Below are positions 29,921-45,322 of a stretch of DNA of 64,000 nucleotides, one piece after another (the stretch's first letter is position 1; every line of letters starts with the position of its first letter). This DNA is from Methylophilales bacterium MBRSF5 (GTDB lineage: Bacteria > Pseudomonadota > Gammaproteobacteria > Burkholderiales > Methylophilaceae). The stretch is from contig CP011001.1 in NCBI GenBank assembly GCA_001044335.1, forward strand, positions 1,054,001 to 1,118,000. The letters run 5' to 3'. The notes below the pieces were generated by a model. The model saw only the letters and a program-made list of their open reading frames with translations. It searched no databases and was not told the origin of the DNA. The position numbers and the translations under genes are program-made.

Positions 29921-29947
29921 AGATGTAGCAATAATTAAAGGTCAGGA
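29921..29947 (-). promoter_or_regulatory. ECF-type promoter before the exported Sel1 gene
   Basis: Minus strand reads TCCTGAC, 14 bases, ACATCT. The same two boxes at the same spacing stand before the island Sel1 leader RNA and the divergent pseudoknot RNA, and with one extra base before the sigma gene. They resemble the -35 (xxTGAC/GGAAC-like) and -10 boxes of ECF promoters. Confidence 0.65.
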
Positions 29948-29948
29948 A

Positions 29949-30632
29949 TTATTGCTTTTTACTGTTTTGATTAATTAAATATTCATAGTTCACGCGACCA
30001 TAATCATTGCCTAAAGCCGCAGCACGCTTATAGAACTCAATGGCTTTGTCATGATCTTCTTCCCCATCAAAACCCATGTGGTAAATCAAGCCAATATTAA
30101 ATAAAAGGTTGGGGTTACTGGGATATTTTTTAAGTAAGATTAAACACCCTTCGAGATCAATTTGATCTGGATCACAGCCGCCAATATTTGTTGGCAGAGG
30201 ATTAGTCAAATAACGATGGCCAAACATAATGAAAGTGCCATTCTTGAACCATTTCTTCCAAAACAATTTGGGATCCTGTCCTTCAAGTTCTTCCTGGGTG
30301 TGTGTCAATTCTAAAGGAAGTGGTTTGGTGAAATGCACATACTCTTTGGTGGCATAGACTCCTGAGGCACCAAGTATAAATGCAAGAATCCAATGCTTAT
30401 ATGCAAATGATCTTTTTTGTTTTGGAATAAGATAGCGATCTTGAAGAACTTTACCTATTCTTTTCTCAAAGGCTTGTTGACGTTTCTCCATCAAATGCTC
30501 TTCAAGGTTATCTTCTTTAATCATAATATTTCTAACCATACGAGCGATCACACGCCATTTAGGATCCATGCCAGGTACTTTTTTACCTTGCAATACACTC
30601 ATAAAGTTATCTTGTATTTGGTGTTTACTCAT
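29949..30632 (-). CDS. Membrane protein with periplasmic Sel1-type repeat, probable anti-sigma factor
   Basis: 227 residues. A cytosolic N-terminus of about 80 residues is rich in charged helices (IARMVRNIMIKEDNLEEHLMEKRQQAFEKR). One membrane helix follows (KHWILAFILGASGVYA, about residues 84-99), then a periplasmic part with FWKKWFKNGTF and, at the end, a Sel1-like unit (LLFNIGLIYHMGFDGEEDHDKAIEFYKRAAALGN). The start overlaps the sigma gene stop by 4 bases. Gene position, topology and helical N-terminus fit an anti-sigma factor that holds the ECF sigma at the membrane. No zinc-type HxxxCxxC anti-sigma motif is present, so this would be a different class. The function is inferred. Confidence 0.65.
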   Translation of the reverse strand: MSKHQIQDNFMSVLQGKKVPGMDPKWRVIARMVRNIMIKEDNLEEHLMEKRQQAFEKRIGKVLQDRYLIPKQKRSFAYKHWILAFILGASGVYATKEYVHFTKPLPLELTHTQEELEGQDPKLFWKKWFKNGTFIMFGHRYLTNPLPTNIGGCDPDQIDLEGCLILLKKYPSNPNLLFNIGLIYHMGFDGEEDHDKAIEFYKRAAALGNDYGRVNYEYLINQNSKKQ

Positions 30633-31207
30633 GATGTTTCCAAATCCTTACATTCTTCAAAGTATGTGGTCAATTTCTTTTTCGATTGAGATAAAAATTC
30701 TTTAGTTGCTGCATAAGATCGTCCTATTCTGATTGATATATCTTCAACGGGCACGCCATCTTTTTGTAAATTAATGACATAGTGGCGATCTGGCATCTCT
30801 TCTTTAAATAATTTAAATTTTTCCTCAATGCAGCTTTGCTGATCAACATATTTCTGACCATAGCTCACCTTCACATCTTCATCGCCAGTAAGATTTTCCA
30901 GGTCTTCAGTATCAAGACCGAACATTACATTATTTTTTCTAGATGATTTTCGATAAAACTCATTCATATTATTTCTTAGAATCTGCCACAACCATGATTC
31001 AAATTTACTATCGTCTTTAAGAGTATCGATTTTTTCAAATACCTTAATATAAGTCTCTTGAATAACATCATCTGCATCTTCATCATTCAATCTATTACTT
31101 ACCAAAAACTTGAAGGCTTTTTTATAAAAAAAGTTATTTAGAGACCTGTAGGCAGTATTCAGCTTTGCTTTGTCTTGTAATTGTTCTAATACTTCCCCTG
31201 CAAGCAT
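30629..31207 (-). CDS. ECF-family RNA polymerase sigma factor
   Basis: 192 residues from ATG 31207, which has GGAGG seven bases upstream; an open frame to 31255 would start inside its promoter. Region 2 is clear: DADDVIQETYIKVFEKIDTL, then FESWLWQILRNNMNEFYRK. Region 4 is VPVEDISIRIGRSYAATKEFLSQSKKKL. A short linker and no region 3 make it an ECF (sigma-70 group IV) factor. It is followed, with a 4-base overlap, by the probable anti-sigma gene, then by an exported Sel1 protein. A TCCTGAC-N15-GCATCT motif upstream suggests autoregulation. Confidence 0.93.
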   Translation of the reverse strand: MLAGEVLEQLQDKAKLNTAYRSLNNFFYKKAFKFLVSNRLNDEDADDVIQETYIKVFEKIDTLKDDSKFESWLWQILRNNMNEFYRKSSRKNNVMFGLDTEDLENLTGDEDVKVSYGQKYVDQQSCIEEKFKLFKEEMPDRHYVINLQKDGVPVEDISIRIGRSYAATKEFLSQSKKKLTTYFEECKDLETS

Positions 31208-31237
31208 TATTCCTCCAGTTTTGCTCTTATATAAATG

Positions 31238-31265
31238 AGATGCTGCAATACTCAATAGGTCAGGA
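31238..31265 (-). promoter_or_regulatory. ECF-type promoter of the sigma factor operon (autoregulation)
   Basis: Minus strand TCCTGAC, 15 bases, GCATCT, ending 31 bases before the sigma start codon. It is one of four copies of this motif in the window. It also shares TATTGC just before the -10 box with the Sel1 promoter at 29921. Confidence 0.65.
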
Positions 31266-31296
31266 TTTTTTATTCAATTAATGAATGAAATTTTTT

Positions 31297-31323
31297 TCCT
31301 GACTTTTTCAAACTCACTCATCT
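31297..31323 (+). promoter_or_regulatory. ECF-type promoter of pseudoknot RNA A
   Basis: Plus strand TCCTGAC (31297-31303), 14 bases, TCATCT (31318-31323). The same boxes and spacing recur at 43576-43602 before RNA B. In both, ACTAAG follows five bases after the -10 box and probably marks the RNA start. It is divergent from the sigma promoter 31 bases away. Confidence 0.65.
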
Positions 31324-31327
31324 ATCA

Positions 31328-31560
31328 ACTAAGGAGGCGTAATTTCTCTCTTCATCACCTCCAGCACCATGGTTATCTGGTGTTTAATATGATAACCGCT
31401 TACTTCCCTGAAACACCGCCTGACTAGCCGGCGGTTCAAATAGGCTAGTCAATAATCTTAATAACATCTTAACTATGTTTTAATTTAAATAAAATTTTTA
31501 TTGTCTTAATTTGATAAAGTACGTAATAAAGCTTACATGAACTGTAAGCCTTGTTTTTAT
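31328..31560 (+). ncRNA. Candidate structured RNA A with two tandem H-type pseudoknots
   Basis: Predicted transcript from ACTAAG (31328) to a bidirectional hairpin terminator near 31560. Elements in order: stem GGAGG (31333-31337) with CCTCC (31358-31362). Pseudoknot 1 has CACCA 31365-31369 with TGGTG 31378-31382, and GGTTATC 31371-31377 with GATAACC 31391-31397. Pseudoknot 2 has ACCGCC 31415-31420 with GGCGGT 31430-31435, and GACTAGCC 31422-31429 with GGCTAGTC 31443-31450. Both knots have a 1-base first loop and a 7-8-base third loop, the sterically good geometry on this strand only. There is no convincing open reading frame. No known family is recognised. Confidence 0.6.
31531..31560. terminator. 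Bidirectional hairpin at the left island end
   Basis: GCTTAC (31531-31536) pairs with GTAAGC (31544-31549), followed on the plus strand by CTTGTTTTTA. It is the displaced copy of the tRNA terminator at 47114-47146 and can also end RNA A. Confidence 0.65.
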
Positions 31561-31609
31561 TGGTGGGCCCACCTGGACTCGAACCAGGGACCAAAGGATT
31601 ATGAGTCCT
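31542..31609. repeat. Left attachment repeat: displaced 3' part of tRNA(CAU) plus flank
   Basis: 68 bases identical to 47135-47202 (offset 15593). 31561-31609 is the 3' 49 bases of the tRNA including CCA and the anticodon arm; after 31609 the match stops and no 5' half follows. Weaker similarity continues to about 31501. It is the signature of a tyrosine-recombinase island in a tRNA gene, with the recombinase gene starting 102 bases inside. Confidence 0.93.
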
Positions 31610-31711
31610 TATGCTGTAATTAATATTCAATAAAAACAAATACTTATATCAACTTTACTTGTTGCTTTTTGTAGTCTATCATGATTTTTGTTACCTTAAC
31701 ATTTTGACATC

Positions 31712-32905
31712 ATGGACACATTCACGAAAGTTTTAAACACCAAAGGCTTATACAAACGTCAACAAAAAGACTCATCGAGCTGGGTAGTCAAAGGTCGCAT
31801 TAAAGGCGGTAAAGTCGTTACTGTCACCATTGGCGATACCAGACTGTATAAACAAGCAGAAGCCAAGCAGAAGACTCTGGATATATTAAAGATGATGTCT
31901 GAAGGAATTAATCCTAACGAGGCCAAAAGAGCTGAACAGGAAATCAATCGACTGCGAGGTTTTACACTAGAGCAAGCTGTAGCAGAATGCAGCAAATTAT
32001 CCCAGTGGAAAGAATCCACCAGAAAAGATATTGAGCTTGTCATGAACCGTCGTTTTAAAGATTGGTTTAAAAAACCATTAGCGTCAATTACTAAACAAGA
32101 ATGTTTAAATCGCTTTAATCAGATCAAAGTAGACATTAAAAAGAATAATCGTCAGAAGAATCGAAGTAGTGTAAATGACGTAGGTGAAGGAGAGGCGCAG
32201 AAAGCCTTTCGTTATTTGAATGCTATCTTTAACACGTTCATTGAAGATGATATTGGGGACGTTAAACTTCTTCCTAAAGGCAATCCCTGCTCCATCCTTA
32301 AAACAAAAAAGGTGCGTAAAACCCTTATTTCAAGAGAGCGATACCTAGACCTTCAGAAACGTATGAAACTTCATGAAGAGTTAAAGGCATCATCAGATCT
32401 GGAGGAATATCAGGGAAGGCATCGCATTAAAAAAGATGATCGTGATCTAATTATGCTGTTAATTCATACAGGACTAAGACTTGAAGAGGCTTTGAATATC
32501 AAGTGGTCTGATGTTCATTTAGACAATGAAAATTATCTCATTACTAATACCAAGAATAGACGTAAACATTTACTTCCTATGACTAAGGATATTAAGAATC
32601 TATTTAATAAAAGAAATAATAATGGTTCTGTTTATGTATTTCCTAGTCCATTGGATAATAGGAAGGCACTCTCAGCAAGCAAGATCTTTAAGCGAGTATC
32701 AGAAGAGGTGGGTTTTAATTTCTCAGCTCATGACTTAAGAAGGACTGTGGCCACTGTTGCTGCTGAGTGTGGATATGATATCTCTAACATCGGAGCATTA
32801 CTGAACCACTCACAAAGAACGGTCACTGAAGGTTATGTTCAACGTACACAACCACGACTAAAAAGAATCCTTGAAGACATTGAGAATGCTCTTTTTCACT
32901 CATGA
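31712..32905 (+). CDS. int: Tyrosine recombinase (island integrase)
   Basis: 397 residues. The N-terminal arm-type DNA-binding domain (SSSWVVKGRIKGGKVVTVTIGD) resembles that of phage P4-type integrases, followed by a SAM-like core-binding domain and a catalytic domain. Catalytic residues: Arg256 in HTGLRLEEAL, a Lys near 281, His340 and Arg343 in HDLRRT, His366 in LNHSQ, and nucleophile Tyr375 in EGYVQRT. It probably recombines the 68-base tRNA repeats. Its stop overlaps the start of the next gene (ATGA), so both proteins are made together. No excisionase gene was found. Confidence 0.94.
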   Translation: MDTFTKVLNTKGLYKRQQKDSSSWVVKGRIKGGKVVTVTIGDTRLYKQAEAKQKTLDILKMMSEGINPNEAKRAEQEINRLRGFTLEQAVAECSKLSQWKESTRKDIELVMNRRFKDWFKKPLASITKQECLNRFNQIKVDIKKNNRQKNRSSVNDVGEGEAQKAFRYLNAIFNTFIEDDIGDVKLLPKGNPCSILKTKKVRKTLISRERYLDLQKRMKLHEELKASSDLEEYQGRHRIKKDDRDLIMLLIHTGLRLEEALNIKWSDVHLDNENYLITNTKNRRKHLLPMTKDIKNLFNKRNNNGSVYVFPSPLDNRKALSASKIFKRVSEEVGFNFSAHDLRRTVATVAAECGYDISNIGALLNHSQRTVTEGYVQRTQPRLKRILEDIENALFHS

Positions 32906-34329
32906 TTAATTTCAAGATAAATACAGACAAAGCTTTTTATTACAGAAAAGCCATGCGTTTCGATGTTTATAAGTTAAGAAATGCAAAACTAAAAAAATGT
33001 ATCAACAACATATGTAATGAAATGTTAAATATTTATAAACAAAAGGCAAAAAGAGTAAGGAATATTAAGGAAAGAAAACATGCTTGCTTTTATATTCTTC
33101 TAAATTTATGGAAAGCTTACTACTTAACCTTTAATCCATGGGTTTCATATTCAAGAGATAAAAATAAATACAACAAGGGTCAAAGACTAAATAAGCTTCA
33201 TTTCAAATATGAAGCCTTTATCCAAACTCATAACGACCTAGTTAAAGAGGGATTAATAATTAATAAAGATAATGTTCATTTCCCTGGATACTCTTTCACC
33301 TCAAGAATGAAAGCTAGCAAAAAACTTATTAAGTTGTTTGATCAAGTTTCGCAAGACAGTAATTTAATTTCATCCTTAACAAAACAAAATGGATTGGATG
33401 AGATTGTTATTAAGAATAAGAAAAAACAACCAATTAAATATCGAGCAAACAGGCAAATCAAACAATGGAGAGAAAACTTAATAACAATCAACAATAAATT
33501 ATTAAGTGCTCGAATATGCCTTGATATGGAAAATGATCAATATCTGAATTTTATTGAAAGATTAAATAAAGACAGAGATCGTGTTGACTACTTCCCTGAC
33601 TTCACTTCTGTGACACTGCATAGGGTATTTAATAATTCTTCAATAAATCAGGGAGGGAGATTCTTTGGAGGATGGTGGCAATCTATTCCAAGAGAATATA
33701 GAAAGTTTATTGATATTAACTACAAACCAACAGAAGAGGTAGATTACTCAGGGCATCACATTCGTATAATGTATTCATTAGATAATAAAAATCTTGAGGG
33801 TGAGCCTTATGAGGTAGAAGATGAATCAAGAAATACTCAAGAATTTATTGATGAAAGAAAAATAGCAACACTAGTCATGTTGAATTGCTCAAGTTATACA
33901 GAGGCTCATGAAACCCTAAAAACTATGGGTTATAAATCATCTAAGTTTCTGATGAATGAAATAATTCATAGACATGAACCTATAAAAGATAACTTCTTCA
34001 CAGGAATAGGCAATAAACTAATGAACGAGGACTCTAAAATAGCTGAGGAGGTTATGCTAAGGATGATTAAATTAGGTCATGTCATATTACCTGTACACGA
34101 TAGTTTTATTGTTAGAAATTCTGCTACGTTTGAATTAAAACCAATCATGGAGGAAGTGTTTAATAAATACTGTAAAAATAAAACAATCCTTAAAACTAAA
34201 GAGACGTCTCTTGAGTGGAATAGTGAACAAGCGAAGATAAAAGATAAATTGACAATTAATGATGAGAATTTTCTAGAGAAATACTTTAACAACAGAACTA
34301 TAGTTAACTCTATTTGGGACCCTTCGTAG
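32902..34329 (+). CDS. Divergent family-A DNA polymerase-like (palm domain) protein
   Basis: 475 residues, translationally coupled to the integrase. The C-terminal half shows the three palm motifs of family A polymerases in order. Motif A is VDYSGHHIRIMY (Asp281, Tyr282, Ser283, Arg288; compare DYSxxELR). Motif B-like is DERKIATLVMLNCSSY (Arg319, Lys320). Motif C is ILPVHDSFIV (His399, Asp400; compare VHDEL). The helix NEDSKIAEEVMLRMIKLG before motif C also follows Pol I. The motif A Glu is His and the second motif C acidic residue is Ser, as in single-subunit RNA polymerases (HDS). There is no 3'-5' exonuclease domain. The N-terminal 240 residues are basic and unfamiliar. Activity is not proven. 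Confidence 0.65.
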   Translation: MINFKINTDKAFYYRKAMRFDVYKLRNAKLKKCINNICNEMLNIYKQKAKRVRNIKERKHACFYILLNLWKAYYLTFNPWVSYSRDKNKYNKGQRLNKLHFKYEAFIQTHNDLVKEGLIINKDNVHFPGYSFTSRMKASKKLIKLFDQVSQDSNLISSLTKQNGLDEIVIKNKKKQPIKYRANRQIKQWRENLITINNKLLSARICLDMENDQYLNFIERLNKDRDRVDYFPDFTSVTLHRVFNNSSINQGGRFFGGWWQSIPREYRKFIDINYKPTEEVDYSGHHIRIMYSLDNKNLEGEPYEVEDESRNTQEFIDERKIATLVMLNCSSYTEAHETLKTMGYKSSKFLMNEIIHRHEPIKDNFFTGIGNKLMNEDSKIAEEVMLRMIKLGHVILPVHDSFIVRNSATFELKPIMEEVFNKYCKNKTILKTKETSLEWNSEQAKIKDKLTINDENFLEKYFNNRTIVNSIWDPS

Positions 34330-34337
34330 GGTCCCAA
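34314..34337 (+). terminator. Hairpin at the end of the polymerase-like gene
   Basis: TTGGGACCCT (34314-34323) pairs with AGGGTCCCAA (34328-34337) around a TCGT loop and includes the stop codon. It is a strong 10-bp stem but has no T run, so it could be a terminator, an RNA stabiliser or a processing site. The following 240 bases to 34580 are AT-rich with no gene that I can support. Confidence 0.5.
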
Positions 34338-34580
34338 TCGTATACTATCAACTAGTAACTACCCTCTCTAACCATTACCCAGTAGATTAAGAGACGTTCT
34401 ACTGCATATTAAACCCCATCACCACATATAAGTATTTGATTTTAAATAGAATTATTTAATTTTAATATTTTAATAATGGCTTAATTTATATATAGTTTAA
34501 TACCTATTTAATAATTCATCTATGTCAGATTACAAGATTTATCTTATTAACTTACTATGAAAAAAAACTTTACTGCTGTT

Positions 34581-35774
34581 TTATTGATACTCTTCGAGAG
34601 CACCAGAAGATAAATTAAACCTATAGTTCAGAATTGTACCTTGTTTAATTTTTTCTATAGCTTCTTCAATAGTTTCAAGCGGGACTAAGAACCACTCTTG
34701 CGGATGATAGGGTTTGTTAAATCTATCTGGAATTTCTATTTTAATTCTTGCAGATGCGAAAATACTATGAAGTAATTGTTCAAGTTTTTTTCGTTCAATG
34801 TTAAATAATTCATAGGTAGCAACTAGCTCAGCCTTTGCAAATAGAAAAGTAGGGTCATTTTCAGCTCCAGACACTCTCTGTTTAGCATCTCGCCCTGTTA
34901 CACCAATTTTATGAATATTATTTTGATTTGCTTTGATCATAGGATGGTCTGATTTGCTCCGACAAACATAAATCACTCCACTTTGAACATCATCCTCTTT
35001 TGGTTGATCATCAAACAATGGCCCAATATTAACATCAGTGATACGGCGACCATTTTCATCCTCATATAAACGCTTTTTTAGAGAGTGCATCAATTGATTG
35101 CTCTCAACACCATTATCAAAGATTACTCTAAGTCTATGTTCATTTCTTCCATCAACACCAATGAATTTCTCTCCTATATCAGCAACATAAACTTTCTGGC
35201 CAGAAAGAATAAAAAAATCTCCTTTCTCAACATTTCCGTCCCTACGATAGGGGATAAGCTTTCTTAATCCAGATTCAATATCACTTTGTACTTTTTTGAA
35301 TAAAGGCTCAAAAATATAAAAATCTTTACAAGGTATTCTTTGGCCTATTTCTTTTGGTGGAGTTTTACTTGATCTTGGTTTGATGTGGCGAAGATTAGTA
35401 ATATCAGAATCACTTTGCTCATTGAAACCAAGCTCCTCAAGTAATAAATCATCGTCTAAATCATCAGTTGAAGAATTATTTTCAATCAATTTGTCATTTA
35501 GGAGCTCTTGTTGATCGTATTGTTTTAATAAATCAATAATATCTTCTGGAAGATGTCGAATTTGTTCCAATCTAATAGCAAAAATACGCTCAAAGATATC
35601 TTTTTCATGATCAAATGACGGCTCTCTTCCTTTATCTTCAACAAACTTTTGGATTTTTTCAAAGCCTTCAATAATCTTTTCTTCTTTAGATGTTAATGTT
35701 GATTTCTTTTTAACCTCAACTTCAATCCCTAACTCAGCTATGAGCCTATCATCTTCTTTAGTAAACTTAGCCAT
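34581..35774 (-). CDS. GIY-YIG/T5orf172-type nuclease domain protein, last gene of the defence-like block
   Basis: 397 residues. The C-terminal part (about residues 265-380) has the GIY-YIG superfamily pattern: GVIYVCRSKSD, HKIGVTGRDAKQRV (the YIG-equivalent and catalytic Arg region), and a Glu-containing helix near ERKKLEQLLHSIF, as in T5orf172/Mug113 domains. The N-terminal half is charged and helical (EGFEKIQKFVEDKGREPSFDHEKDIFERIFAIRLEQIR). It overlaps the helicase gene by 8 bases. It is the likely DNA-cutting component of the operon, which otherwise has a methyltransferase and a helicase. Metal-binding Glu was not pinned down. Confidence 0.75.
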   Translation of the reverse strand: MAKFTKEDDRLIAELGIEVEVKKKSTLTSKEEKIIEGFEKIQKFVEDKGREPSFDHEKDIFERIFAIRLEQIRHLPEDIIDLLKQYDQQELLNDKLIENNSSTDDLDDDLLLEELGFNEQSDSDITNLRHIKPRSSKTPPKEIGQRIPCKDFYIFEPLFKKVQSDIESGLRKLIPYRRDGNVEKGDFFILSGQKVYVADIGEKFIGVDGRNEHRLRVIFDNGVESNQLMHSLKKRLYEDENGRRITDVNIGPLFDDQPKEDDVQSGVIYVCRSKSDHPMIKANQNNIHKIGVTGRDAKQRVSGAENDPTFLFAKAELVATYELFNIERKKLEQLLHSIFASARIKIEIPDRFNKPYHPQEWFLVPLETIEEAIEKIKQGTILNYRFNLSSGALEEYQ

Positions 35775-37845
35775 TTTGTTTTGCCTCAGCCACCATCATA
35801 GCGTATGCATTCATACCTTCAGCAATTCTAACTTCCCATGGATCATTTGATGTAATATCTGGCAACCGTCCTCTCTCTCTTTTAAACTTAAGTGCTCTTA
35901 ATGCTAGCTCCTTAGCCTCTTCCACGGTTAATTTTACTTTCTTGCTCGAAATAATATTACTTAATTTTCTAAGACTATCTTCACTCATTGATTTAGACAA
36001 AATTGAATAAGCTTGACCAAAAGGATTAATGCTATCTATGAAATCAACATCTAAATTAGTAACATCCATAACAAATTTACGCACACTGTCAATAAATGCA
36101 GTATTAGCTCGAGGTTCATCTTGATTTTCAGCTTCTGCTGCGAATGATCCTTTTTCATTAATTATCTTTTTAACCTGTTGAGTCATATTAATTGCAGCAA
36201 TTGCATGTTGACGAACAGCTTCTTTATCATGATCATCTAATCTGGGGTATTTCTCACCGACTATTTTTCCCATTGCTATTTGAGTTATCTCTTCTGATAT
36301 AATCTCTTCATCAAAAATACCTCTTTCAATAGTGCGTTTATCCTGAGCAAAAGCAGTAATCAGCTCCTCTATATCTTCTTTACAAATACGTTGAGCCTCA
36401 TTACTTTTAGGCTCTGCTAATCCATCAATTTCTATCTGTATTCTGCCTGTTTCTTTATTAATCCCTACGTTAGGCTGATCAGGATTATATCCTCCCTCTC
36501 CATAATCAAATCCATTTAAGGGGCCACTGTTAATTGTTTTTGGTGAAAAATCAAATTTAGGTGCTAGAACTTGCTCCATAAGTAGGCTTGCAGCAATAGC
36601 TTTTAATGTGTCATTTACCGCATCGGCAACATTCTCTTGAGAGGCATCCGGTTCAGCTATTAAATTTGTAAAACGAGTACGATCTTTACCAGGTGCATCG
36701 CGAGTAGCTCTGCCAATTATTTGAACAACCTCTGTTAAACTGGCACGATACCCCACCGTGAGTGCATGTTCGCACCAAATCCAATCAAATCCTTCTTTTG
36801 CCATACCGAGTGCAATAATAATATCAACATAATCTTTATTATTTTCCATCTCAATTGATCTTAAACTTGCCTGAACTTTTTGGCGTTTTATAGGATCGTC
36901 ATCAACCAAATCAGCAAGTTTTAAGACATGGCCATCAGTAAGCTTTATCAAATGAAAACCGGTTTTAGGATCGATACCCTGCCAATCACCTATCTCTTCA
37001 ATTATGTGAGCAACTTCTTTAATTTTATCTTTAGTGCTTTCTTTTGAATTAACGTTGGGGATATGAATAATTGTTTTTTCATTCAGATCAAGGACCTTAA
37101 GAATATCATCAACATATGGGCCGTTATAAAAGAAATAACCTATATTTAATTCTTTGAGATATTCATAACCACTTAACTGTTCATAGTATGTATATGTAAC
37201 TGTTTCAAATTTAGCCTCATCATCAGGAATCATAACTGCATCTGCATCACCTCGAAAGTATGAGCCAGTCATTGCAACAATGTGAACTTTGTTTCGTTCG
37301 AGAAGCTCAGCTAATTGGTTTCCAAGGACATTGTCTGGATTAGCACTTACATGATGAAATTCATCTATTGCAATTAATCGATTATCAAATGCACTAATGC
37401 CAAATTTTTCGACTGCACCGCGAAAGGTTGAATGCGTACAAACTAGGTTCGAATCATTGCTATTTAAAAAGGCATTTACTGATTTGATCGTGCCTCCATC
37501 CTCACCAGGTGAATTACAAAGATTCCATTTAGGTTTTACTTCCCAATCTGACCAAAATCCATATTCACTGAGATTTGTGCTATCAAAACTTTTTCCAATA
37601 GATTTTTCTGGAACCACAATAATTGCTTGTTGCAGACCTTGATTTGTTATTTTATCAAGTGCTATGAACATTAATGCGCGACTTTTTCCAGAAGCAGGAG
37701 GTGATTTTATTAACAAATACTGTTCACCTCTCTTTTCATAGGCGCGCTCTTGCATCTGACGCATGCCCATTTCATTTGATGTTTTTGACTTACCAGTAGA
37801 TTCGTAACTTACAGATACTGATGGAATGCTAATTTTTTTATTCAA
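35767..37845 (-). CDS. Superfamily 2 DEAD/DEAH-like helicase
   Basis: 692 residues with the SF2 motifs: I SPPASGKSRA (Walker A), II AIDEFHHV (DExH type), III MTGSYFRGD, and VI QIIGRATRDAPGKDRTRF with arginine fingers. This matches helicases of type I/III restriction and related defence systems, where they translocate DNA. The C-terminal 250 residues (KKIINEKGSF onward) are helical and probably bind partners. It overlaps the methyltransferase upstream by 4 bases and the GIY-YIG gene downstream by 8. Confidence 0.9.
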   Translation of the reverse strand: MNKKISIPSVSVSYESTGKSKTSNEMGMRQMQERAYEKRGEQYLLIKSPPASGKSRALMFIALDKITNQGLQQAIIVVPEKSIGKSFDSTNLSEYGFWSDWEVKPKWNLCNSPGEDGGTIKSVNAFLNSNDSNLVCTHSTFRGAVEKFGISAFDNRLIAIDEFHHVSANPDNVLGNQLAELLERNKVHIVAMTGSYFRGDADAVMIPDDEAKFETVTYTYYEQLSGYEYLKELNIGYFFYNGPYVDDILKVLDLNEKTIIHIPNVNSKESTKDKIKEVAHIIEEIGDWQGIDPKTGFHLIKLTDGHVLKLADLVDDDPIKRQKVQASLRSIEMENNKDYVDIIIALGMAKEGFDWIWCEHALTVGYRASLTEVVQIIGRATRDAPGKDRTRFTNLIAEPDASQENVADAVNDTLKAIAASLLMEQVLAPKFDFSPKTINSGPLNGFDYGEGGYNPDQPNVGINKETGRIQIEIDGLAEPKSNEAQRICKEDIEELITAFAQDKRTIERGIFDEEIISEEITQIAMGKIVGEKYPRLDDHDKEAVRQHAIAAINMTQQVKKIINEKGSFAAEAENQDEPRANTAFIDSVRKFVMDVTNLDVDFIDSINPFGQAYSILSKSMSEDSLRKLSNIISSKKVKLTVEEAKELALRALKFKRERGRLPDITSNDPWEVRIAEGMNAYAMMVAEAKQNG

Positions 37846-40610
37846 GATAAGTTTCCTTTGGTAACTGAATTACTAGGTGTAGAAGTTAATTTTACATAAA
37901 GTTCAAAGAGCTTTTCTAATCGCTCTGTATCGTTTTTAAATTTACGTCCAATGTAGATTCTTTCTATTATTTCATCATTTTTTTTATGTGCTTGAAGTAA
38001 ATTTTCAGGCATATTATCTGGCTTATAAAGTTCTGCAACAGATGCAGGAAAATGTTTTTCACGAGCTATGAGGATATCTTCAGTGCAACGTATTAGATCT
38101 ATTTTATTTTTTTCTGTTAAATTAGGAACTGGAAAATTATTCCATCCAATTGTGTTTGAATAACGAAAGTCTGATCTTAGTCTGCCACAAACTGTAGAAA
38201 TCCATACAATATGAACTCTAGATGCAATAAGAGCAAAATTCCATAGTGGTGCATCATAAAGAGCAAATACAGCATGTGAAAAAACAGTTCCATTTTCTTC
38301 CAGAAAGACAGGAAGATATTCACGATTTTCTGATGACACTACTGGAATAGCGATTGTATGTGTGTTGCATTCTCTCATTTCTCTAAACCTATATGGGGTG
38401 TCTGCCATTTTTTTAGCCATTTGATCAGGCGAGTTAATTCTAGCGTTATAAACAGATTTAATTCTTTCTTGAACAAAATTATTATCAGAATATTTTAATA
38501 AAGCTTTTTCATCAGGAATCCATAAACAATATCGATGCATACCCTTTATCAACTCACTTGAGCCTTTAAATATCTTAATATTGTTAAGTGAGACACCATT
38601 ATCAACAGCCTCTTTCAAGCCATCTTTTTCCATAAGTAGACCCTCAGACAAACCATAATAGTTACCTTTAATCATTTCACTTATTGGGCTTATAGTTTCA
38701 GATGCTCTTTTTACGTATACATTTGGTCCAGCAATTAAATATGCATTAATTTGATTAACTTCTCTTTTAAGTCCTGAATCATAAAGATAACAATTTTGTT
38801 TTGTATTGGATTTAGCGCACCCAATAATTACAACTGTAACTCCTGCATTATTTGAGGCTAGATTATTCCACTGAAAAGATAAAACAGCAAAATTAATAGG
38901 TACATCCAATCTGCGAATTTCAGCCCAAAAGTTATCAATATTTTGACCCTGACAGATTGAGTTTGTCGACACAAAAGCATAACTTGAATTTGATTTATGA
39001 CAATATATATGTGCTAAATAAAACCAAGCACAAATATAATCTAACGATCTCCAGTTTGGAAAAAAACTTGATAAGCAATCCTTCATATCAAGCTTTTGAG
39101 ATTTATCCATATCTGCGTTACCTTTAAAAGGCGGATTTCCACAGATATATGTTTCTCCTCCCTCATTCCTAAAATCAATAAATGGTTGACTCTTAGGCTC
39201 CTGAAAAAGATCATTGGAAAAATCCTCGGCAACTTGCTTGGTTGGTGGGCACACACTTAACCAGTCTGTTCTTAAAGCATTTCCATGCACAATCCAATTT
39301 TCAGAATCTAATGGCAGAAAATCTGCTAATGCATCTTTTTGACCTCTGTAAAGTTCATCACATTGATACTCAGCAATTATTAAAGCTAAACGTGCGATCT
39401 CTGTTGCAAATTCTCTTAACTCAATACCTCTAAAATTACTTAAAGGTATTTCAGATCTTAAATGTGACTCTCCTCTCAAATCATTTATTACTGATTCAAT
39501 TTTACGCATTTCTTTATAAGCAATTACTAAAAAGTTTCCTGAACCACAAGCTGGATCAAAAATTCGTATTCTAGAAATACGCTTTTTTAAATTAATGAGT
39601 TTTCGTTGATTATCACCAGCCTCCTGAAGAGCCTGATTTAAATCATCAAGAAATAATGGGTTGAGTAATTTAAGAATATTGGGAACACTTGTGTAATGCA
39701 TACCCACAAGACCTCGCTCTTCATCATCAGAAATAGCCTGAATCATAGAGCCAAATATATCTGGATTAATCGTTTTCCAGTTCAAATTACCTGCATGGAT
39801 CAAATAGGATCGAGCGATACGACTAAACTTTGGAACATCTCTATTTCCTGAAAAAAGCCCCCCATTAACGTAAGGAAAATCATGCGTCCAATTGGGTAAT
39901 GCTTCCTTAACTCTATCTTCATACTTAACATCCATCGCGTGAAATATTTTAGAAATAACAAAATCAACATTTCCAGAATTGTTATCACTCATCTGATCAA
40001 TAGTGTTTGTGAACAAATCTTTTGATGGAAAAATACCAGTATCTTCTGCGAAAAAACAGAAAATTAAACGCGACATAAATTGGTTAAGATCATGCCTGCG
40101 TTCTGCGGTATCCCATTCTTGATTTTCTTTTAATAGTTCAACATACAAACGGTTTAAGCGTCCTGTTGCTTGAATATCAACTGGATTATTACGAATTTCT
40201 TTGGTAGTTGAAATTCCAGCTAAAGTAAGGAAAAAACCAAAATGATGGGGGAAGTTTTTAAATTCCGACGCAACTGTTTCTCCCGATACAATATTTTCTG
40301 CTACAAAATCTATACCATCCGTAGCTAAAATAATTTTTACTTTTCCTTTAGCTGAAGATGCACTTTCTTTTAACTTAGACAAATAATTGTCAGCATCTCC
40401 TTCGGGACAAACAGATATATGAATATTATTTCGCTGAAGAACTCCACCAGGTATATCAGAGATATTTGAAGAGCTTTTAGAACTTCTAAGCATTTTTATT
40501 GTGGTGTCTTTATTACCAAATGCCTTTAAAAAATCAAAAGGGAACTCTTCAGCATCAAATGGTTGTTTTGCTAGTTCTGATAATGCCTCTTCAATTTCAA
40601 CGGCATTCAA
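37842..40610 (-). CDS. MmeI-like adenine-specific DNA methyltransferase, apparently lacking the nuclease motif
   Basis: 922 residues, the size of MmeI-type restriction-modification proteins. SAM motif I is FDPACGSGNF (from residue 351) and catalytic motif IV is GNPPF (491-495), the N6-adenine type. The helical spacer mark FFAEDTGIFPS lies near 187-197, and a target-recognition-like region occupies the C-terminal third. The N-terminal 100 residues should hold a PD-(D/E)XK nuclease in MmeI; here the corresponding strand reads NNIHISVCPEG without the ExK signature. Cutting may therefore depend on the coupled helicase and GIY-YIG protein. No separate specificity subunit is present. Confidence 0.85.
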   Translation of the reverse strand: MNAVEIEEALSELAKQPFDAEEFPFDFLKAFGNKDTTIKMLRSSKSSSNISDIPGGVLQRNNIHISVCPEGDADNYLSKLKESASSAKGKVKIILATDGIDFVAENIVSGETVASEFKNFPHHFGFFLTLAGISTTKEIRNNPVDIQATGRLNRLYVELLKENQEWDTAERRHDLNQFMSRLIFCFFAEDTGIFPSKDLFTNTIDQMSDNNSGNVDFVISKIFHAMDVKYEDRVKEALPNWTHDFPYVNGGLFSGNRDVPKFSRIARSYLIHAGNLNWKTINPDIFGSMIQAISDDEERGLVGMHYTSVPNILKLLNPLFLDDLNQALQEAGDNQRKLINLKKRISRIRIFDPACGSGNFLVIAYKEMRKIESVINDLRGESHLRSEIPLSNFRGIELREFATEIARLALIIAEYQCDELYRGQKDALADFLPLDSENWIVHGNALRTDWLSVCPPTKQVAEDFSNDLFQEPKSQPFIDFRNEGGETYICGNPPFKGNADMDKSQKLDMKDCLSSFFPNWRSLDYICAWFYLAHIYCHKSNSSYAFVSTNSICQGQNIDNFWAEIRRLDVPINFAVLSFQWNNLASNNAGVTVVIIGCAKSNTKQNCYLYDSGLKREVNQINAYLIAGPNVYVKRASETISPISEMIKGNYYGLSEGLLMEKDGLKEAVDNGVSLNNIKIFKGSSELIKGMHRYCLWIPDEKALLKYSDNNFVQERIKSVYNARINSPDQMAKKMADTPYRFREMRECNTHTIAIPVVSSENREYLPVFLEENGTVFSHAVFALYDAPLWNFALIASRVHIVWISTVCGRLRSDFRYSNTIGWNNFPVPNLTEKNKIDLIRCTEDILIAREKHFPASVAELYKPDNMPENLLQAHKKNDEIIERIYIGRKFKNDTERLEKLFELYVKLTSTPSNSVTKGNLS

Positions 40611-40627
40611 TTGTCAAAATTCCTATA

Positions 40628-41434
40628 TTATTCATATTTATTTCTTTGATTTGCATACGCACAATTTTCACAACTAATATGACTGTGTGGCAATTCATTA
40701 CCATTCATACATTCAATCATTAATTGCACTTGCTCATCGATCCATGAAATATCATGTTGATAAGGTATTAATGTTTCACTAAATTCCATTTTACCCATAA
40801 AACCATCAGCATTTCTATTAGCATTTACAACTAAGAAGTAGGATGTATCTGATGTTTTAAAACCCATATTGGTAAGCAAGTAATTATAGAAATCCATCTG
40901 GATTTTATAACCCTCATGATAAGGAGAATTTAAATAGGATTCTGTTTCAACTGGATTGTTGCTGGCTTGAGATTTATAGTCCACTAAAATTAATTCTTCT
41001 TTGTTTGTATCAAACCAAATATCATCCACACCACCTGAGAGAATAATATTGGAATCTTTATAACGCCACATTAAACCTTTACGTAATGAGTCACGCCAAT
41101 CATCCATGGACTCATGTTGAAAAGGAACTACATGGTCTAATCCATATTGTGAAAATAAACGATGTGGGATTTGTTGTTCACGACATTGATCAAATTCTTT
41201 TTTAAGGAGTAAGTCAGTGGTTTCATTTAAAGTCCATCCGGGTAATCCTGGCTCTGCTAAACCAACCACTCGATCTAAATAAAAACATCGCGGGCATGTG
41301 ATGAAGGTTGAAAACTTACCACGACTGATTTTAAAGTCTTCTGTTTGCCCAGGTTTATAGATAGAGGTTTCTCGACTTCGCCTTCCAGTTGCCTCAACTA
41401 ACTCGAGTTTACTATTTCTTTTTAAGCTCACCAT
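40628..41434 (-). CDS. PD-(D/E)XK nuclease, RecB/Cas4-like with four Cys
   Basis: 268 residues. The nuclease core is GGVDDIWFD followed by ELILVDYKS (the G-x-x-D...D-x-K signature). A CPRC pair near residue 43 and a CENC pair near 258 are placed as in Cas4/AddB nucleases, where four Cys bind an iron-sulfur cluster. There is no CRISPR array or cas1 nearby. It lies 17 bases before the methyltransferase gene in the same orientation and so may be the first gene of the defence-like block. A DNA-repair exonuclease role is an alternative. Confidence 0.8.
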   Translation of the reverse strand: MVSLKRNSKLELVEATGRRSRETSIYKPGQTEDFKISRGKFSTFITCPRCFYLDRVVGLAEPGLPGWTLNETTDLLLKKEFDQCREQQIPHRLFSQYGLDHVVPFQHESMDDWRDSLRKGLMWRYKDSNIILSGGVDDIWFDTNKEELILVDYKSQASNNPVETESYLNSPYHEGYKIQMDFYNYLLTNMGFKTSDTSYFLVVNANRNADGFMGKMEFSETLIPYQHDISWIDEQVQLMIECMNGNELPHSHISCENCAYANQRNKYE

Positions 41435-41537
41435 ATCTTGATTATATTTAAATCAGGCTGATTTTGATAATTTCTATGAGATATTTTTAAGCTCTAATTC
41501 ATACTAAAAAAAGAGGTCTTATCCCCCTGGGTAGGTA

Positions 41538-42473
41538 TTATTCTTCTCGCTCTACAAATGCAAAGTGATTATTATTCAATTCATTTTCACCCATCCAAGA
41601 ATACGCCACTAACTTGCCATGAACTCGAGCCACACTCCAATCGACGCAGGCAATGTTTGAAGCCAGAGTTTTAGGTTCGCCATTCATCCAATAATGTCCC
41701 ATAAATACTGGAGGCTGTGTCACATCATAATTAATTAAACAATCATCTGTGACAGGCTCATCAGGAATCGTAGGAATAGCATCTTCAGGACCTAAGAACA
41801 TATCACGATAAGTGGTTGCTTCCTGCATCCACCATTTAATTCTGATCTCTGTTCGCTCATTACCTTCTTTATCTAAAAATGACTTTCCACTAGGTAATGA
41901 TATTTCTTTGCCTTTTAATAATGTTTCAATGGCTTGATATTCCCAATTCTCTTTATATGCTGATAGAAATAAAAACTCATCCGTCAGATAAGGTTGCTGA
42001 TAGTTATCTATTACCGTTTGAATAAGATCTGGGTCCCAGCATGCATGAATGATTCTTAAGTTTCCTAAATCAATCCATAACGGTAATGTTTTAAACCAAC
42101 TAAGTAACTCTAAATACTCATCTGTATCTGATGCATAAGCATCTAGGAATGCTTGGTGCTGCTTAAGGTTTTTATCACTATGTTTTCTTAAAAAACCACC
42201 GTTGGGATCTTCGGTCGCAAACGATATGGCATTGTATTCATGGTTCCCCATAACCGCTAAAGCATGTCCATCGTCAATCATGGGTCGCACAATATCAATG
42301 ACTCGTCTTTGATAGTTTCCGCGATCAATAAAGTCTCCTAAGAAAATAACTTTTCGTTCAGGGTGTTGATAAATACCATTAGTTTCTTGATAGCCTAATT
42401 TGAGCAGAAGTTTTTGTAATTCTAAGGCTTGGCCGTGAATGTCACCGATGATGTCAAATGCTTGCATAGTCAT
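41538..42473 (-). CDS. PPP-family metallophosphatase (Ser/Thr phosphatase or Ap4A hydrolase-like)
   Basis: 311 residues. The three metallophosphatase motifs are present: GDIHG near residue 11, GDFIDRG near 50 and GNHEYN near 80, with the later metal His in IIHACWD and MGHYW. The family includes bacterial protein phosphatases and symmetric diadenosine tetraphosphatases; the sequence does not decide between them. It is the last gene of an overlapping five-gene operon, starting 20 bases inside the preceding small gene (ATG 42467 is an alternative). Confidence 0.88.
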   Translation of the reverse strand: MTMQAFDIIGDIHGQALELQKLLLKLGYQETNGIYQHPERKVIFLGDFIDRGNYQRRVIDIVRPMIDDGHALAVMGNHEYNAISFATEDPNGGFLRKHSDKNLKQHQAFLDAYASDTDEYLELLSWFKTLPLWIDLGNLRIIHACWDPDLIQTVIDNYQQPYLTDEFLFLSAYKENWEYQAIETLLKGKEISLPSGKSFLDKEGNERTEIRIKWWMQEATTYRDMFLGPEDAIPTIPDEPVTDDCLINYDVTQPPVFMGHYWMNGEPKTLASNIACVDWSVARVHGKLVAYSWMGENELNNNHFAFVEREE

Positions 42474-42636
42474 CTTGAAGTTTCTTCTTTAGTAACCTTG
42501 CCATTCTTTCATCTTCTAGCTTGATTACTTTCTTTTGTTTTTCCTCATCGTAAGACCACATAGTTTCCATCATATGCATCGTATAAGGAAGCAGTTCATC
42601 TAATGGGCATAAACCTAATTCCTTATCTTTACTCAC
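42454..42636 (-). CDS. Small charged cytosolic protein (60 aa)
   Basis: 60 residues, starting MSKDKELGLCPLDELLPY, with a charged helical C-terminus (EKQKKVIKLEDERMARLLKKKL). No signal peptide or membrane segment. It is linked by a 4-base ATGA overlap to the gene before and a 20-base overlap to the phosphatase after it, which strongly supports real coding. I do not recognise a family. It may be a partner of the phosphatase. Confidence 0.65.
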   Translation of the reverse strand: MSKDKELGLCPLDELLPYTMHMMETMWSYDEEKQKKVIKLEDERMARLLKKKLQDDYASI

Positions 42637-42923
42637 CTCACATATCCTTCACGATTACCATCTAAATCATAAATATTGGTGACTCCATTTGAGTTAGGTA
42701 CAGCATATCCAGTCGCATTACCATCGTTATCACGAATAACACGATCACTATTCCAGTTGTTAGGATTATTCTCCCAATTGTTAGGACTGTTCTCCCAGTT
42801 ATTCGAAGAGTTATCCCAATTGTGTTCTGAATTTTCCCAGTTGTATGGACTGTCCTCCCAAGAAGTGACTCCAGCAAATGCTGAAAAAGAAATGATTGCT
42901 AGTACTAACATAAGTTTTTTCAT
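42633..42923 (-). CDS. Exported small protein with Trp/Asn heptad repeats
   Basis: 96 residues. After a signal peptide (residues 1-17, cleavage after AFA) come five 7-residue repeats of the form N-N-W-E-N-S-P (Trp at 29, 36, 43, 50, 57, plus Trp22), then a compact tail RDNDGNATGYAVPNSNGVTN with YDLDGNREGY. Similar NW-repeat plus DNG-GYAVP proteins occur as hypotheticals in Proteobacteria; I know of no function. DNA shows the matching 21-base periodicity (about 42744-42860). Both ends overlap neighbours by 4 bases. Confidence 0.75.
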   Translation of the reverse strand: MKKLMLVLAIISFSAFAGVTSWEDSPYNWENSEHNWDNSSNNWENSPNNWENNPNNWNSDRVIRDNDGNATGYAVPNSNGVTNIYDLDGNREGYVR

Positions 42924-43246
42924 CGTTGAAATCCTAATCTATATATAAATCTAAAACATTTAAATACATACCAAATAAAATAAGCAATAACAGTAAATAG
43001 ACATACCAACATACAAACTTCGACAAAGCCTTTCTCGATTGGATCACAAGCAACAACTTGATAATGATCAAAACCATAGCCAATTAATTTATTTTCATTA
43101 AAGAATGGGCTACAGCCTTTTATCCTTTTTAACATCTGAAAGAAAATTTCACCTGTGAAGAAACTCAACCAAAAGATATAAAATAAAATCGATCGACTTT
43201 CAAAGAACTGTAAGATTTTTAAACAGAATGCATTTAGTTTTTTCAT
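42920..43246 (-). CDS. Small membrane protein in the exported-repeat operon
   Basis: 108 residues with two or three hydrophobic segments (SILFYIFWLSFFTGEIFF near residues 19-36; VCMLVCLFTVIAYFIWYVF near 76-94) and a short extracytoplasmic loop containing two Cys. It overlaps the repeat-peptide gene upstream and the heptad-repeat gene downstream by 4 bases each. No family recognised. Its position between two exported repeat proteins suggests a role in their export, anchoring or immunity. Confidence 0.65.
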   Translation of the reverse strand: MKKLNAFCLKILQFFESRSILFYIFWLSFFTGEIFFQMLKRIKGCSPFFNENKLIGYGFDHYQVVACDPIEKGFVEVCMLVCLFTVIAYFIWYVFKCFRFIYRLGFQR

Positions 43247-43521
43247 TCATCAAATCCAAATAAAGATTTATCTTGTACATATCCATCCGCCAGTGGATTA
43301 GTGTCTTGAATATAACCATCAGCTAATGGATTCACATCTTGTACATAACCGTCGGCTAATGGATTCGTTCTTTGAATATAACCATCGGCAAGGGGATTAA
43401 CATCTTGAATGTAGCCATCGGCTAAAGGGTTGGTTCTCTGATAGTAACCTTCGGCTAGCGGGTTACCTCCTGCAAACACAGGTGAGACAATGAAACACAG
43501 AATTGAAAGATAACCTTTCAT
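43243..43521 (-). CDS. Exported peptide with six 11-residue repeats
   Basis: 92 residues. A signal peptide (cleavage about after VFA, residue 17) precedes six almost perfect 11-residue repeats, N-P-L-A-D-G-Y-(I/V/Y)-Q-(D/R)-(V/T/K), then SLFGFDE. The matching DNA has 33-base repeats at 43267-43464 whose third positions differ, so selection appears to hold the peptide rather than recent DNA expansion. It is first gene of the five-gene overlapping operon. It may be a structural surface peptide or be cut at the repeats. Function unknown. Confidence 0.75.
   Translation of the reverse strand: MKGYLSILCFIVSPVFAGGNPLAEGYYQRTNPLADGYIQDVNPLADGYIQRTNPLADGYVQDVNPLADGYIQDTNPLADGYVQDKSLFGFDE
43267..43464. 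repeat. Six 33-bp coding tandem repeats
   Basis: Encodes the six NPLADGY units of the 43243-43521 protein. Units differ at many third positions and at the I/V and D/R choices. Confidence 0.85.
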
Positions 43522-43575
43522 ATTTAATTCTTAGTCTATCAAAAGAAAAATAAAGTTGCATTAATTATCAAAATG

Positions 43576-43602
43576 TCCTGACGATTTCATTAAACATCAT
43601 CT
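43576..43602 (+). promoter_or_regulatory. ECF-type promoter of the island Sel1 operon / RNA B
   Basis: TCCTGAC (43576-43582), 14 bases, TCATCT (43597-43602), then ACTAAG at 43608. Boxes and spacing match the promoter of RNA A at 31297-31323, and the copies also share TTTCA and AAAC between the boxes. It places this island operon under the chromosomal ECF sigma, by inference. Confidence 0.65.
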
Positions 43603-43607: not shown

Positions 43608-43706
43608 ACTAAGAGGTATCTCTCCTTTCGTTCCTAATGATCCTCTTCCGCTAAGGCTATCCAGCGGCAAGAGGATAGCCACCATTAAATAGAATGAAGG
43701 AATATT
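43608..43706 (+). promoter_or_regulatory. Structured leader RNA B with pseudoknot and alternative hairpin
   Basis: Homolog of RNA A. AAGAGG (43611-43616) can pair with CCTCTT (43642-43647). The pseudoknot follows: CCGCT 43648-43652 with AGCGG 43663-43667, and GGCTATCC 43655-43662 with GGATAGCC 43673-43680. A second AAGAGG (43669-43674) can take the same CCTCTT, building one long hairpin that breaks the knot. The two states exclude each other. The leader ends about 30 bases before the Sel1 start, so it may control translation. Confidence 0.55.
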
Positions 43707-43709
43707 GTG

Positions 43710-44693: not shown

Positions 44694-45322
44694 TGATGCA
44701 ATTAATATATAGACTTTCTGCAGTAGTTTTTTTATGTTCAGTATTAGGCTATCTGAATGCTGAAGAAGTATTCAAACATAAAGATTGGTTGGTCGCCACC
44801 TACCCTGATGATTCTAAATACATCAAATACAGCACCCATGGAACAGCTGTGTGGGGTCATGAGTTTGGTTTTTTAAAAACAGTTGGTGATTGTAAAGCTG
44901 ATAATATTTATGTTTCTTGGTCGTCTACTAAAGACATTAATCAATTAAAAAGGATGGAAAGTAAAAAAGTTTTATTTGAACTAGGGCCTGATGATAATTT
45001 TGAATTTCAATTTGCCATTCCTAATTTAGCTGTGACGCATTTAATCGGTAGTAATGAATATTTTGAAATACCAAATCCATTAAATGTGATGTTGTTTACT
45101 AACTACTTCCCAAAATATACTTTCCTGCCTACACTCGAAGCTGGAAGAAAAATTAGTGTCAATGTTAGCAATCAAGATCCACATCATGGAAACTTTGATA
45201 TTCCAGATGATCAATTTAGTTTAGAAGGGTACATTGCAGCTCGTCAGTATGCGATGGAGTTGTGTGAAATGAGAACCAAAGCTTTAGAAATTAAAGATCA
45301 ATATAAAGTCACAATGCGTTAA
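44693..45322 (+). CDS. Hypothetical exported protein
   Basis: 209 residues with a signal peptide (hydrophobic residues 8-21, ending LNA). The mature part is beta-rich in appearance (DWLVATYPDDSKYIKYSTHGTAVWG) with two Cys (VGDCKADN and MELCEMR) that could pair. Its ATG overlaps the preceding stop by 1 base (TAATG), so it is translated with the Sel1 gene. I recognise no family. Confidence 0.7.
   Translation: MMQLIYRLSAVVFLCSVLGYLNAEEVFKHKDWLVATYPDDSKYIKYSTHGTAVWGHEFGFLKTVGDCKADNIYVSWSSTKDINQLKRMESKKVLFELGPDDNFEFQFAIPNLAVTHLIGSNEYFEIPNPLNVMLFTNYFPKYTFLPTLEAGRKISVNVSNQDPHHGNFDIPDDQFSLEGYIAARQYAMELCEMRTKALEIKDQYKVTMR

Follow-up and report, generated by a model that had tools for sequence, protein, structure and literature searches.

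The 64,000-nucleotide stretch of the Methylophilales bacterium MBRSF5 genome analyzed here (contig CP011001.1, positions 1,054,001 to 1,118,000; referred to as the window) contains a gene cluster encoding an extracytoplasmic function (ECF) sigma factor, a putative membrane anti-sigma factor, and an exported Sel1-repeat protein. A predicted structured RNA, RNA A, lies divergent from the sigma gene, and a second one, RNA B, leads an operon on a genomic island that begins with another exported Sel1 gene and continues with a gene of a family that we call DWxV. These elements very probably form a regulon under a single dedicated ECF sigma factor, comprising its own operon, exported Sel1 and DWxV outputs, and pseudoknotted leaders, as judged from promoter motifs and gene context across related genomes.

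The sigma factor gene (positions 30629 to 31207, minus strand) encodes a 192-amino-acid protein that matched PF04542 with 47.8 bits (cut-off of 24) and TIGR02937 with 50.5 bits (cut-off of 42.9). Its start codon is the ATG at 31205 to 31207, which lies behind a GGAGGA sequence; an upstream TTG would overlap the promoter. The Pfam search of the protein gave no separate match to region 4, and its profile (A3) aligned to RpoE (1or7_A, profile positions 8 to 165) and to 6in7_B (positions 1 to 165). The presence of region 2 above curated cut-offs and of region 4, together with the absence of regions 1.1 and 3, identifies the predicted protein as an ECF (group IV) sigma factor. The following gene (29949 to 30632, minus strand) encodes the putative anti-sigma factor, which in a profile search and alignment (A4) consists of an N-terminal part, one hydrophobic stretch recognized by eye, and a C-terminal Sel1 repeat with two invariant cysteines. 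This repeat scored 28.2 bits, below the Pfam cut-off of 30.7, and reached 30.9 bits, over the cut-off, in the genome-wide PF08238 search. Gene order and architecture suggest an anti-sigma role for this membrane protein, whose Sel1 repeat would be placed outside the cytoplasm. Cys127 and Cys187 of the sigma factor (numbering one above that from the Met start) are invariant in 20 of 20 aligned sigma sequences, as are Cys153 and Cys163 in 16 of 16 aligned anti-sigma sequences, and a redox or disulfide role for them is possible.

The third gene of the cluster (28613 to 29887, minus strand) encodes an exported protein of 424 amino acids with 8 Sel1 stretches (203.5 bits); its leader, on reading, held no pseudoknot element. 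The island operon includes an exported Sel1 protein (43707 to 44693, plus strand; 62.6 bits) and an exported DWxV protein (44693 to 45322, plus strand) with 32% identity (E = 2e-22) to a protein of the sigma operon in a relative (G011). Members of the DWxV family sit within the sigma operon in several relatives. A probable third gene of the operon (45343 to 46551, plus strand) encodes a protein with a weak ClpP-like match (NF045542, 22.3 bits, below the cut-off of 120) that has a homolog in genome G005 (locus L150; 35% identity, E = 1e-61). Searching the genome with PF08238 at E values of up to 0.001 gave 13 repeats, which by their coordinates fall in four proteins: the 424-amino-acid protein, the anti-sigma factor, the island protein, and a protein encoded near genome position 1350 kb that is 34% identical to the island protein (E = 3e-68). 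Three of these four genes stand directly behind a motif promoter of the kind described below, and the fourth, the anti-sigma gene, lies within the sigma operon.

A search of the window with the pattern TCCTGACN{14,16}CATCT returned four exact TCCTGAC-N14/15-CATCT matches, which agree with the initial annotation in both coordinates and spacers. The sigma gene promoter (31238 to 31265, minus strand) has a -35 box of TCCTGAC, an N15 spacer, and a -10 box of CATCT, whereas the spacer is N14 at the other three sites: upstream of the exported Sel1 gene (29921 to 29947, minus strand), upstream of RNA A and divergent from the sigma promoter (31297 to 31323, plus strand), and upstream of RNA B and the island Sel1 operon (43576 to 43602, plus strand). 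The expected count was 0.02 (mean of shuffled sequences) and none of 100 shuffles reached four matches, consistent with the earlier view that the recurrence is unlikely to be a product of chance. Across the whole genome (one contig of 1,352,814 bases), the motif had six matches and the reversed-pattern control had none; none of the six lies inside an open reading frame (ORF) of at least 100 amino acids, so the scatter of intragenic matches that would speak against a regulon was not seen. The two additional sites were absent from the initial annotation and thus provide an independent test of the motif. One (genome position 803391, plus strand) leads to a 44-codon lipoprotein-like ORF, after which comes a truncated ORF whose product begins with a signal peptide of the Sel1 type; the other (1350596, minus strand) leads to the complete exported Sel1 gene noted above. 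Both carry RNA-B-type leaders. A looser pattern, TCNTGACN{13,16}NATCT, gave 22 genomic matches versus 7 control matches, indicating that both exact boxes matter.

Close orthologs of the sigma factor (75 to 88% identity) occur in 4 of 186 other genomes of the family, whereas G034 and further members of the genus have distant ones (28 to 36% identity). Each of the five genomes with a close sigma retains the motif before the sigma gene, the Sel1 gene, and RNA A, with a -10 box of CATCT or CATCA; the four other genomes have CATCA at the sigma promoter, and two of them (G004 and G029) have CCCTGAC as the -35 box of the Sel1 promoter. The first 13 loci fetched from the remainder of the genus (L094 to L097, L099 to L103, and L105 to L108) encode divergent sigmas, and all 13 keep the order sigma, anti-sigma, big Sel1. 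The pattern nCCTGAC-N14-17-C(G/A)TC stands before 11 of the 13 sigma operons and 12 of the big Sel1 genes, so that the sigma operon is preceded by a promoter of its own type in the window, in all four other close genomes, and in most divergent loci. The -10 box is CGTC in the divergent loci and CATC in the clade of the window. The shared gene order and motif mark this as a conserved ECF regulon whose -10 element, as read from sequence, became CATC in the lineage of the window.

Genome-wide scans of the family bear on the same point. The pattern CCTGACN{14,17}CGTCTA had 37 matches in 31 genomes of the genus, versus 6 for its reverse. When the 37 were sorted by which homologs lay within 1.8 kb of them on the same strand, 28 preceded a homolog of the sigma factor, of a small protein of 83 to 85 amino acids, of DWxV, or of Sel1, and 3 preceded proteins that look alike by eye, one copy of which proved to be a SIMPL protein when tested. 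With spacers of N14 to N16, the CGTCTA form had 26 matches versus 1 reversed in the 31 genus genomes, and 22 versus about 82 reversed (counted by hand) in the other 156 genomes of the family. For the CATCT form, the located matches, which are a part of those in the family, included 27 from genomes other than G000, G001, and G013, and all 27 lie inside ORFs; one of them is the only strict match in G004, a genome in which the module promoters deviate a little from that pattern.

The reader of the boxes might instead be a different sigma factor (a second, ECF-like one), or the boxes might be the operator of a transcription factor, rather than promoters of the neighboring sigma. The window's genome does contain a second sigma match (334590 to 334886, E = 3e-10), and similar weak matches, RpoE-like by our reading, are found across the family. 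However, such sigmas are present outside the genus, where the CGTCTA form was not enriched over its control. Moreover, three genomes that are at least 90% complete and lack the dedicated sigma (G007, G012, and G014) had no CGTCTA match, whereas all seven equally complete genomes with a divergent sigma (G002, G006, G009, G011, G018, G022, and G030) had at least one. Two boxes at such a spacing with a CGTC -10 element are also typical of ECF promoters. We therefore consider a different reader of the boxes very improbable and favor recognition by the neighboring sigma.

Several observations count against a regulon of the proposed extent. The putative anti-sigma factor had no recognized anti-sigma domain in Pfam and NCBIfam searches, and its structure model, which has N-terminal helices, is weak (mean pLDDT of 54). 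Among the divergent loci, two promoters miss the strict pattern, with related sequence still visible: that of the sigma gene in L095 (CCTGAC followed by AGTC) and that of Sel1 in L094 (CCTTAC with CGTC); the miss at the L108 sigma promoter reflects a contig that ends within the operon. Six of the 37 genus matches have no module or SIMPL-type gene behind them: three lie at a contig edge or are divergent from the module, and one of the other three precedes a VIT/VWA protein. Two sigma-bearing genomes (G003 and G024, both less than 90% complete) had no exact CGTCTA match. Farther afield, among the loci from outside the genus considered next, 5 of 17 had no match, one match lies inside the sigma gene (L184), and several other matches are kilobases away from it.

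The sigma alignment, used to scan named genomes, yielded 80 loci, and an outgroup of 17 loci from outside the genus was formed from 15 in the better part of these and two from G034. The signature CCTGAC-N14-16-CGTCT had 19 matches in 12 of the 17 loci, compared with none reversed and 0.26 expected from shuffles; the motif was derived from the genus, and since its final boundaries were fixed once the outgroup loci had been inspected, the test was not blind. Of these matches, seven lie no more than 250 bases upstream of the sigma start (L175, L179, L187, and L189), and two in L185 follow the sigma gene and precede caspase-domain and TPR-CHAT proteins. All five proteins tested in four outgroup loci were peptidase C14 (caspase-domain) or CHAT proteins. 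In our reading, the CCTGAC/CGTC signature would be that of a wider ECF family, with CATC as a local change. The initial annotation had described a new-looking regulon; the circuit finds support, whereas the motif is not unique to it, being a lineage variant, with CATC for CGTC, of a genus-wide signature that also occurs around related ECF sigmas in other bacteria.

RNA A (31328 to 31450, plus strand), as drawn from sequence pairing, begins with a 5' hairpin, P1 (GGAGG at 31333 to 31337 with CCTCC at 31358 to 31362), followed by two pseudoknots, PK1 (31365 to 31397) and PK2 (31415 to 31450). The RNA B leader (43608 to 43680, plus strand) has a P1 of its own (AAGAGG at 43611 to 43616 with CCTCTT at 43642 to 43647) and, directly after it, a potential pseudoknot (43648 to 43680) in which CCGCT/AGCGG is interleaved with GGCTATCC/GGATAGCC. 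Copies of RNA B number three in the window's genome, one in G001, and one in G004, each directly behind a CCTGAC...CATCT promoter. The two pseudoknots of RNA A have the topology of RNA B and a different sequence. Standard pairs make up 99.3% of pair cells in RNA A and 98.9% in the RNA B type. Both RNAs are, on this pairing, predicted H-type pseudoknots, in which two interleaved stems are joined by short loops. A scan for tight H-type pseudoknots on both strands of the window (128 kb) gave four matches, three of which are those of RNA A and RNA B and the fourth of which is at 47799. Three pairs of RNA A are changed on both sides among the five sequences, slid controls gave none, and its covariation score was reached by 4 of 500 shuffles.

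The structural evidence has its own weak points. The limits of the pseudoknot scan (a first stem, S1, of 5 bp and a second stem, S2, of 7 or 8 bp) were set after RNA A and RNA B had been seen, and with an S1 of 4 bp the scan gave seven matches, three of them in RNA A and RNA B. The three two-sided pairs of RNA A were also reached by 83 of 500 shuffles, and its covariation rests on five sequences and essentially one split. The RNA B set shows only two one-sided changes and one broken pair, without covariation. With pseudoknots left out, RNA A folds modestly better than shuffles (RNAfold z of -1.80); RNA B (z of -3.32) also folds as a competing nested hairpin, in which CCTCTT pairs with an AAGAGG further down and which may be a second state or an artefact.

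RNA A was detected by covariance model in exactly the 5 of 187 family genomes that have the close sigma, and it adjoins the sigma gene in all five. Its core, from the 3' arm of P1 through PK2, is identical at 94 of 94 bases in G000, G001, and G013. At 4-fold degenerate sites, the same three genomes share 27/42, 30/43, and 41/47 in the sigma gene and 127/145, 113/145, and 106/142 in the Sel1 gene; the 105 bases downstream of the core are identical at 97/108, 97/108, and 103/105. In G004 and G029, RNA A leads a 25-codon ORF (MGLKNIFLICCVCFCFLIGYGYAIN in G004) that resembles a Sel1 signal peptide, and RNA A therefore probably originated as a leader whose Sel1-type gene has since decayed. In G000, G001, and G013, no ORF of at least 10 codons starts and ends within 120 bases after PK2, and the only open stretch there continues into the terminator and tRNA region. 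The invariant core beside diverged 4-fold sites of the sigma gene, with no complete ORF following, makes it appear that RNA A is kept for its RNA. The initial annotation had treated RNA A as an output of the circuit; by origin, it resembles the leader of a Sel1-type gene that was lost more than it does an independent RNA.

The same data speak to the idea that RNA A and RNA B are functionless remnants of recently duplicated leaders. The RNA B copies are nearly identical in the pseudoknot and provide no covariation, and several Sel1-type ORFs behind the leaders are truncated. Against this, the RNA A core has stayed invariant in three genomes despite the divergence of the sigma gene, and RNA A has paired changes between two subclades, so that we regard mere remnants as unlikely. 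Another reading is that the leaders are riboswitches which bind a ligand and control the Sel1 genes. Several known riboswitches are small pseudoknots, and here structured 5' leaders place an H-type pseudoknot near the ribosome-binding site. However, Rfam covariance models (E up to 5 and 1) gave no match overlapping RNA A (31328 to 31450) or any RNA B copy, the matches elsewhere being tRNAs or below the gathering score; a common binding pocket is also made less likely by unpaired loops that differ among PK1, PK2, and RNA B. Pairing between the P1 loop and the start region, which is eye-catching in L111 and L110 as a translation switch, was rejected when it proved no better than with shuffled loops in five of five cases (p of 0.15 to 0.53). 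Ligand-binding riboswitches are accordingly quite unlikely, and the reading that we prefer is that the leaders influence mRNA stability or translation.

A further alternative, tentative and with somewhat more in its favor than the preceding ones, is that RNA A is a trans-acting RNA, either a small RNA or a decoy for a factor that binds Sel1 leaders, and is induced together with its targets. It lacks a 10-codon ORF in the following 120 bases in three of five genomes, in which its core is invariant; a terminator-like hairpin (GCTTACA/TGTAAGC with a T-rich run; 31525 to 31560, plus strand) lies downstream, within the 85-nt repeat of the island border; and it shares its topology with mRNA leaders and stands beside the sigma gene in every genome that has it. 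Pairing of its 5' part with the sigma and big Sel1 starts, on the other hand, was not above shuffles (p of 0.084 to 0.92 across 8 tests covering 4 of the 5 genomes), and antisense action on these genes was dropped as a candidate; the 25-codon ORF in G004 and G029 likewise indicates that RNA A began as a leader. A more specific and doubtful form of this idea is a pseudoknot RNA family locked to the sigma, in which Sel1-type leaders and RNA A would bind one common factor and RNA A, switched on by the shared sigma through the divergent promoter, would titrate it, so that the exported proteins would be made only when the circuit is on.

Other searches for such RNAs gave candidates that were set aside. 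Four weak matches of the RNA B type elsewhere in the family have no CTGAC upstream and were taken as chance; the family searches for both RNAs used stricter filters that lose some weak matches, and distant copies may be missed. A phage or viral origin was likewise rejected: RNA B was unmatched in phage records, and two exact core patterns were unmatched in viral contigs. Across 74 motif places (relaxed motif, overlapping loci included), all pseudoknots with a 7-bp S2 were in the window's clade; forms with a 6-bp S2 in L094, L100, and L107 were taken as chance, and the scan missed the G001 copy of RNA B, which has one S2 mismatch.

In the circuit that we favor, the dedicated ECF sigma would recognize a -35 box of CCTGAC and a -10 box of CGTC, or CATC in the window's lineage, and would transcribe the operon that encodes it together with the membrane anti-sigma. 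Promoters of their own would place the genes for the exported Sel1-repeat and DWxV proteins under its control as well. Since the sigma would drive both its operon and the exported targets, an extracytoplasmic signal that frees it would raise the circuit and its products together. Autoregulation, recognition of these promoters by the sigma, and sensing of the signal through Sel1 are thus proposed from the arrangement of motifs and genes. In the window's clade, the mRNAs of duplicated Sel1-type genes, a set that excludes the big Sel1 gene and the sigma gene itself, would begin with a 5'-terminal hairpin followed immediately by an H-type pseudoknot, and these leaders would set the stability or translation of the mRNAs for exported proteins. 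RNA A would be a two-pseudoknot version whose coding part has decayed; because it is still conserved, it probably persists as a regulatory RNA.

This arrangement resembles the RpoE-RseA type of ECF/membrane anti-sigma regulon in its two-domain sigma, its downstream membrane gene, and its promoters before both its own operon and exported targets. It differs from that type in a putative anti-sigma with a C-terminal Sel1 repeat in place of a recognized anti-sigma domain, in its Sel1, DWxV, and SIMPL-type outputs, in its CCTGAC -35 box, and in the pseudoknots of some leaders. Like ompA-type stabilizers and the preQ1 and SAM-II riboswitches, RNA A and RNA B place structure at the predicted extreme 5' end, and they are predicted to form a compact pseudoknot; unlike those leaders, they are without a match in Rfam, are tied to one ECF promoter type, and include a tandem version that lacks an ORF. 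Loci in which an ECF sigma has CHAT or caspase neighbors are similar in having a related sigma and the outgroup signature, and they carry the peptidase C14/CHAT proteins in place of the Sel1 module; an association of ECF54 with CHAT is named in PMC8999054. CASP-sigma of type III-E CRISPR, as described in an excerpt of PMC10028731, is also an ECF sigma that a bound partner controls, and binding motifs occur within its locus. The window's sigma scored 37.9 bits against NF041236, below the cut-off of 100, and the same excerpt of PMC10028731 mentions no Sel1 protein or RNA leader. Elsewhere, text from PMC12826043 lists a Sel1 protein among the genes upregulated with Azospirillum RpoE6, and text from PMC5120137 mentions, for an OM43 isolate, RpoE together with a regulator of the MucB/RseB type. 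Among the papers listed by literature searches, none was an account of a Sel1-linked ECF circuit, which does not prove its absence from print.

Streamlined marine methylotrophs keep few regulators, yet in this genome of 1.35 Mb a dedicated sigma appears to govern every Sel1 protein found, including one on an island, which suggests that the exported Sel1 proteins are important. The promoter signature offers a route to predicting regulons of related ECF sigmas in other bacteria, and the change from CGTC to CATC may represent a natural case of a sigma factor and its promoters changing together. The RNAs add a type of structured leader absent from Rfam, in a simple context of two boxes and one sigma.

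The island is bordered by 85-nt direct repeats (31525 to 31609 and 47118 to 47202; 96% identical), and RNA A lies outside it. Its cargo between the repeats includes an integrase, a type IIG restriction-modification enzyme, and the RNA B, Sel1, and DWxV genes, and a relative (L090) has the island-free order rpoD, tRNA-Met, RNA A, sigma. From these two observations, it appears that a mobile element has been wired into the regulon of the host sigma, or the reverse. The island sits at the 3' end of tRNA-Met (31564 to 31608 and 47154 to 47230), and the 85-nt duplication copied the terminator-like hairpin that is now 3' of RNA A. At 34581 to 41434, the restriction-modification enzyme (PDLC03598, 877 bits) adjoins a protein with weak helicase-type matches, and the same region encodes a protein with a weak Cas4 match. 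Small exported repeat proteins with NPLADGY and SPNNW repeats (43243 to 43521 and 42633 to 42923, the latter without a Pfam match) are encoded divergently from the RNA B promoter, and similar ones adjoin the RNA B copy of G004 (L166).

Likely further members of the regulon are similar exported proteins behind the motif in L145 (2060 to 2779, the SIMPL protein), L150, and L154 and the VIT/VWA protein in L159 (2269 to 4452). The protein of 83 to 85 amino acids (3952 to 4203 in L106, and homologs) opens the sigma operon in several relatives with its own copy of the promoter; it had no Pfam match, and a distant match (E = 5e-06) is divergent from the sigma gene in a betaproteobacterium (L175). In L094, L095, and L096, a shared stretch upstream of the sigma promoter, within about 300 bases of the sigma gene, contains GCGAATCATTATCATTTTCATT, which we take to be Fur-box-like. 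A similar hairpin precedes the sigma promoter in L094 (GCCCAAATATCGCTTGGGC) and L096, and the stretch upstream of the sigma gene in L096 had no Rfam match. In four relatives, the Sel1 promoter has its -10 box within an inverted repeat that resembles a terminator (L097, 3967 to 3992; L100, 6189 to 6215, AAATGGGTACGTCTATAAGATGTACCCATTTTTTTT; L101, 6530 to 6556; L103, 6196 to 6222), as if transcription of the sigma and anti-sigma genes ended where the Sel1 promoter begins.

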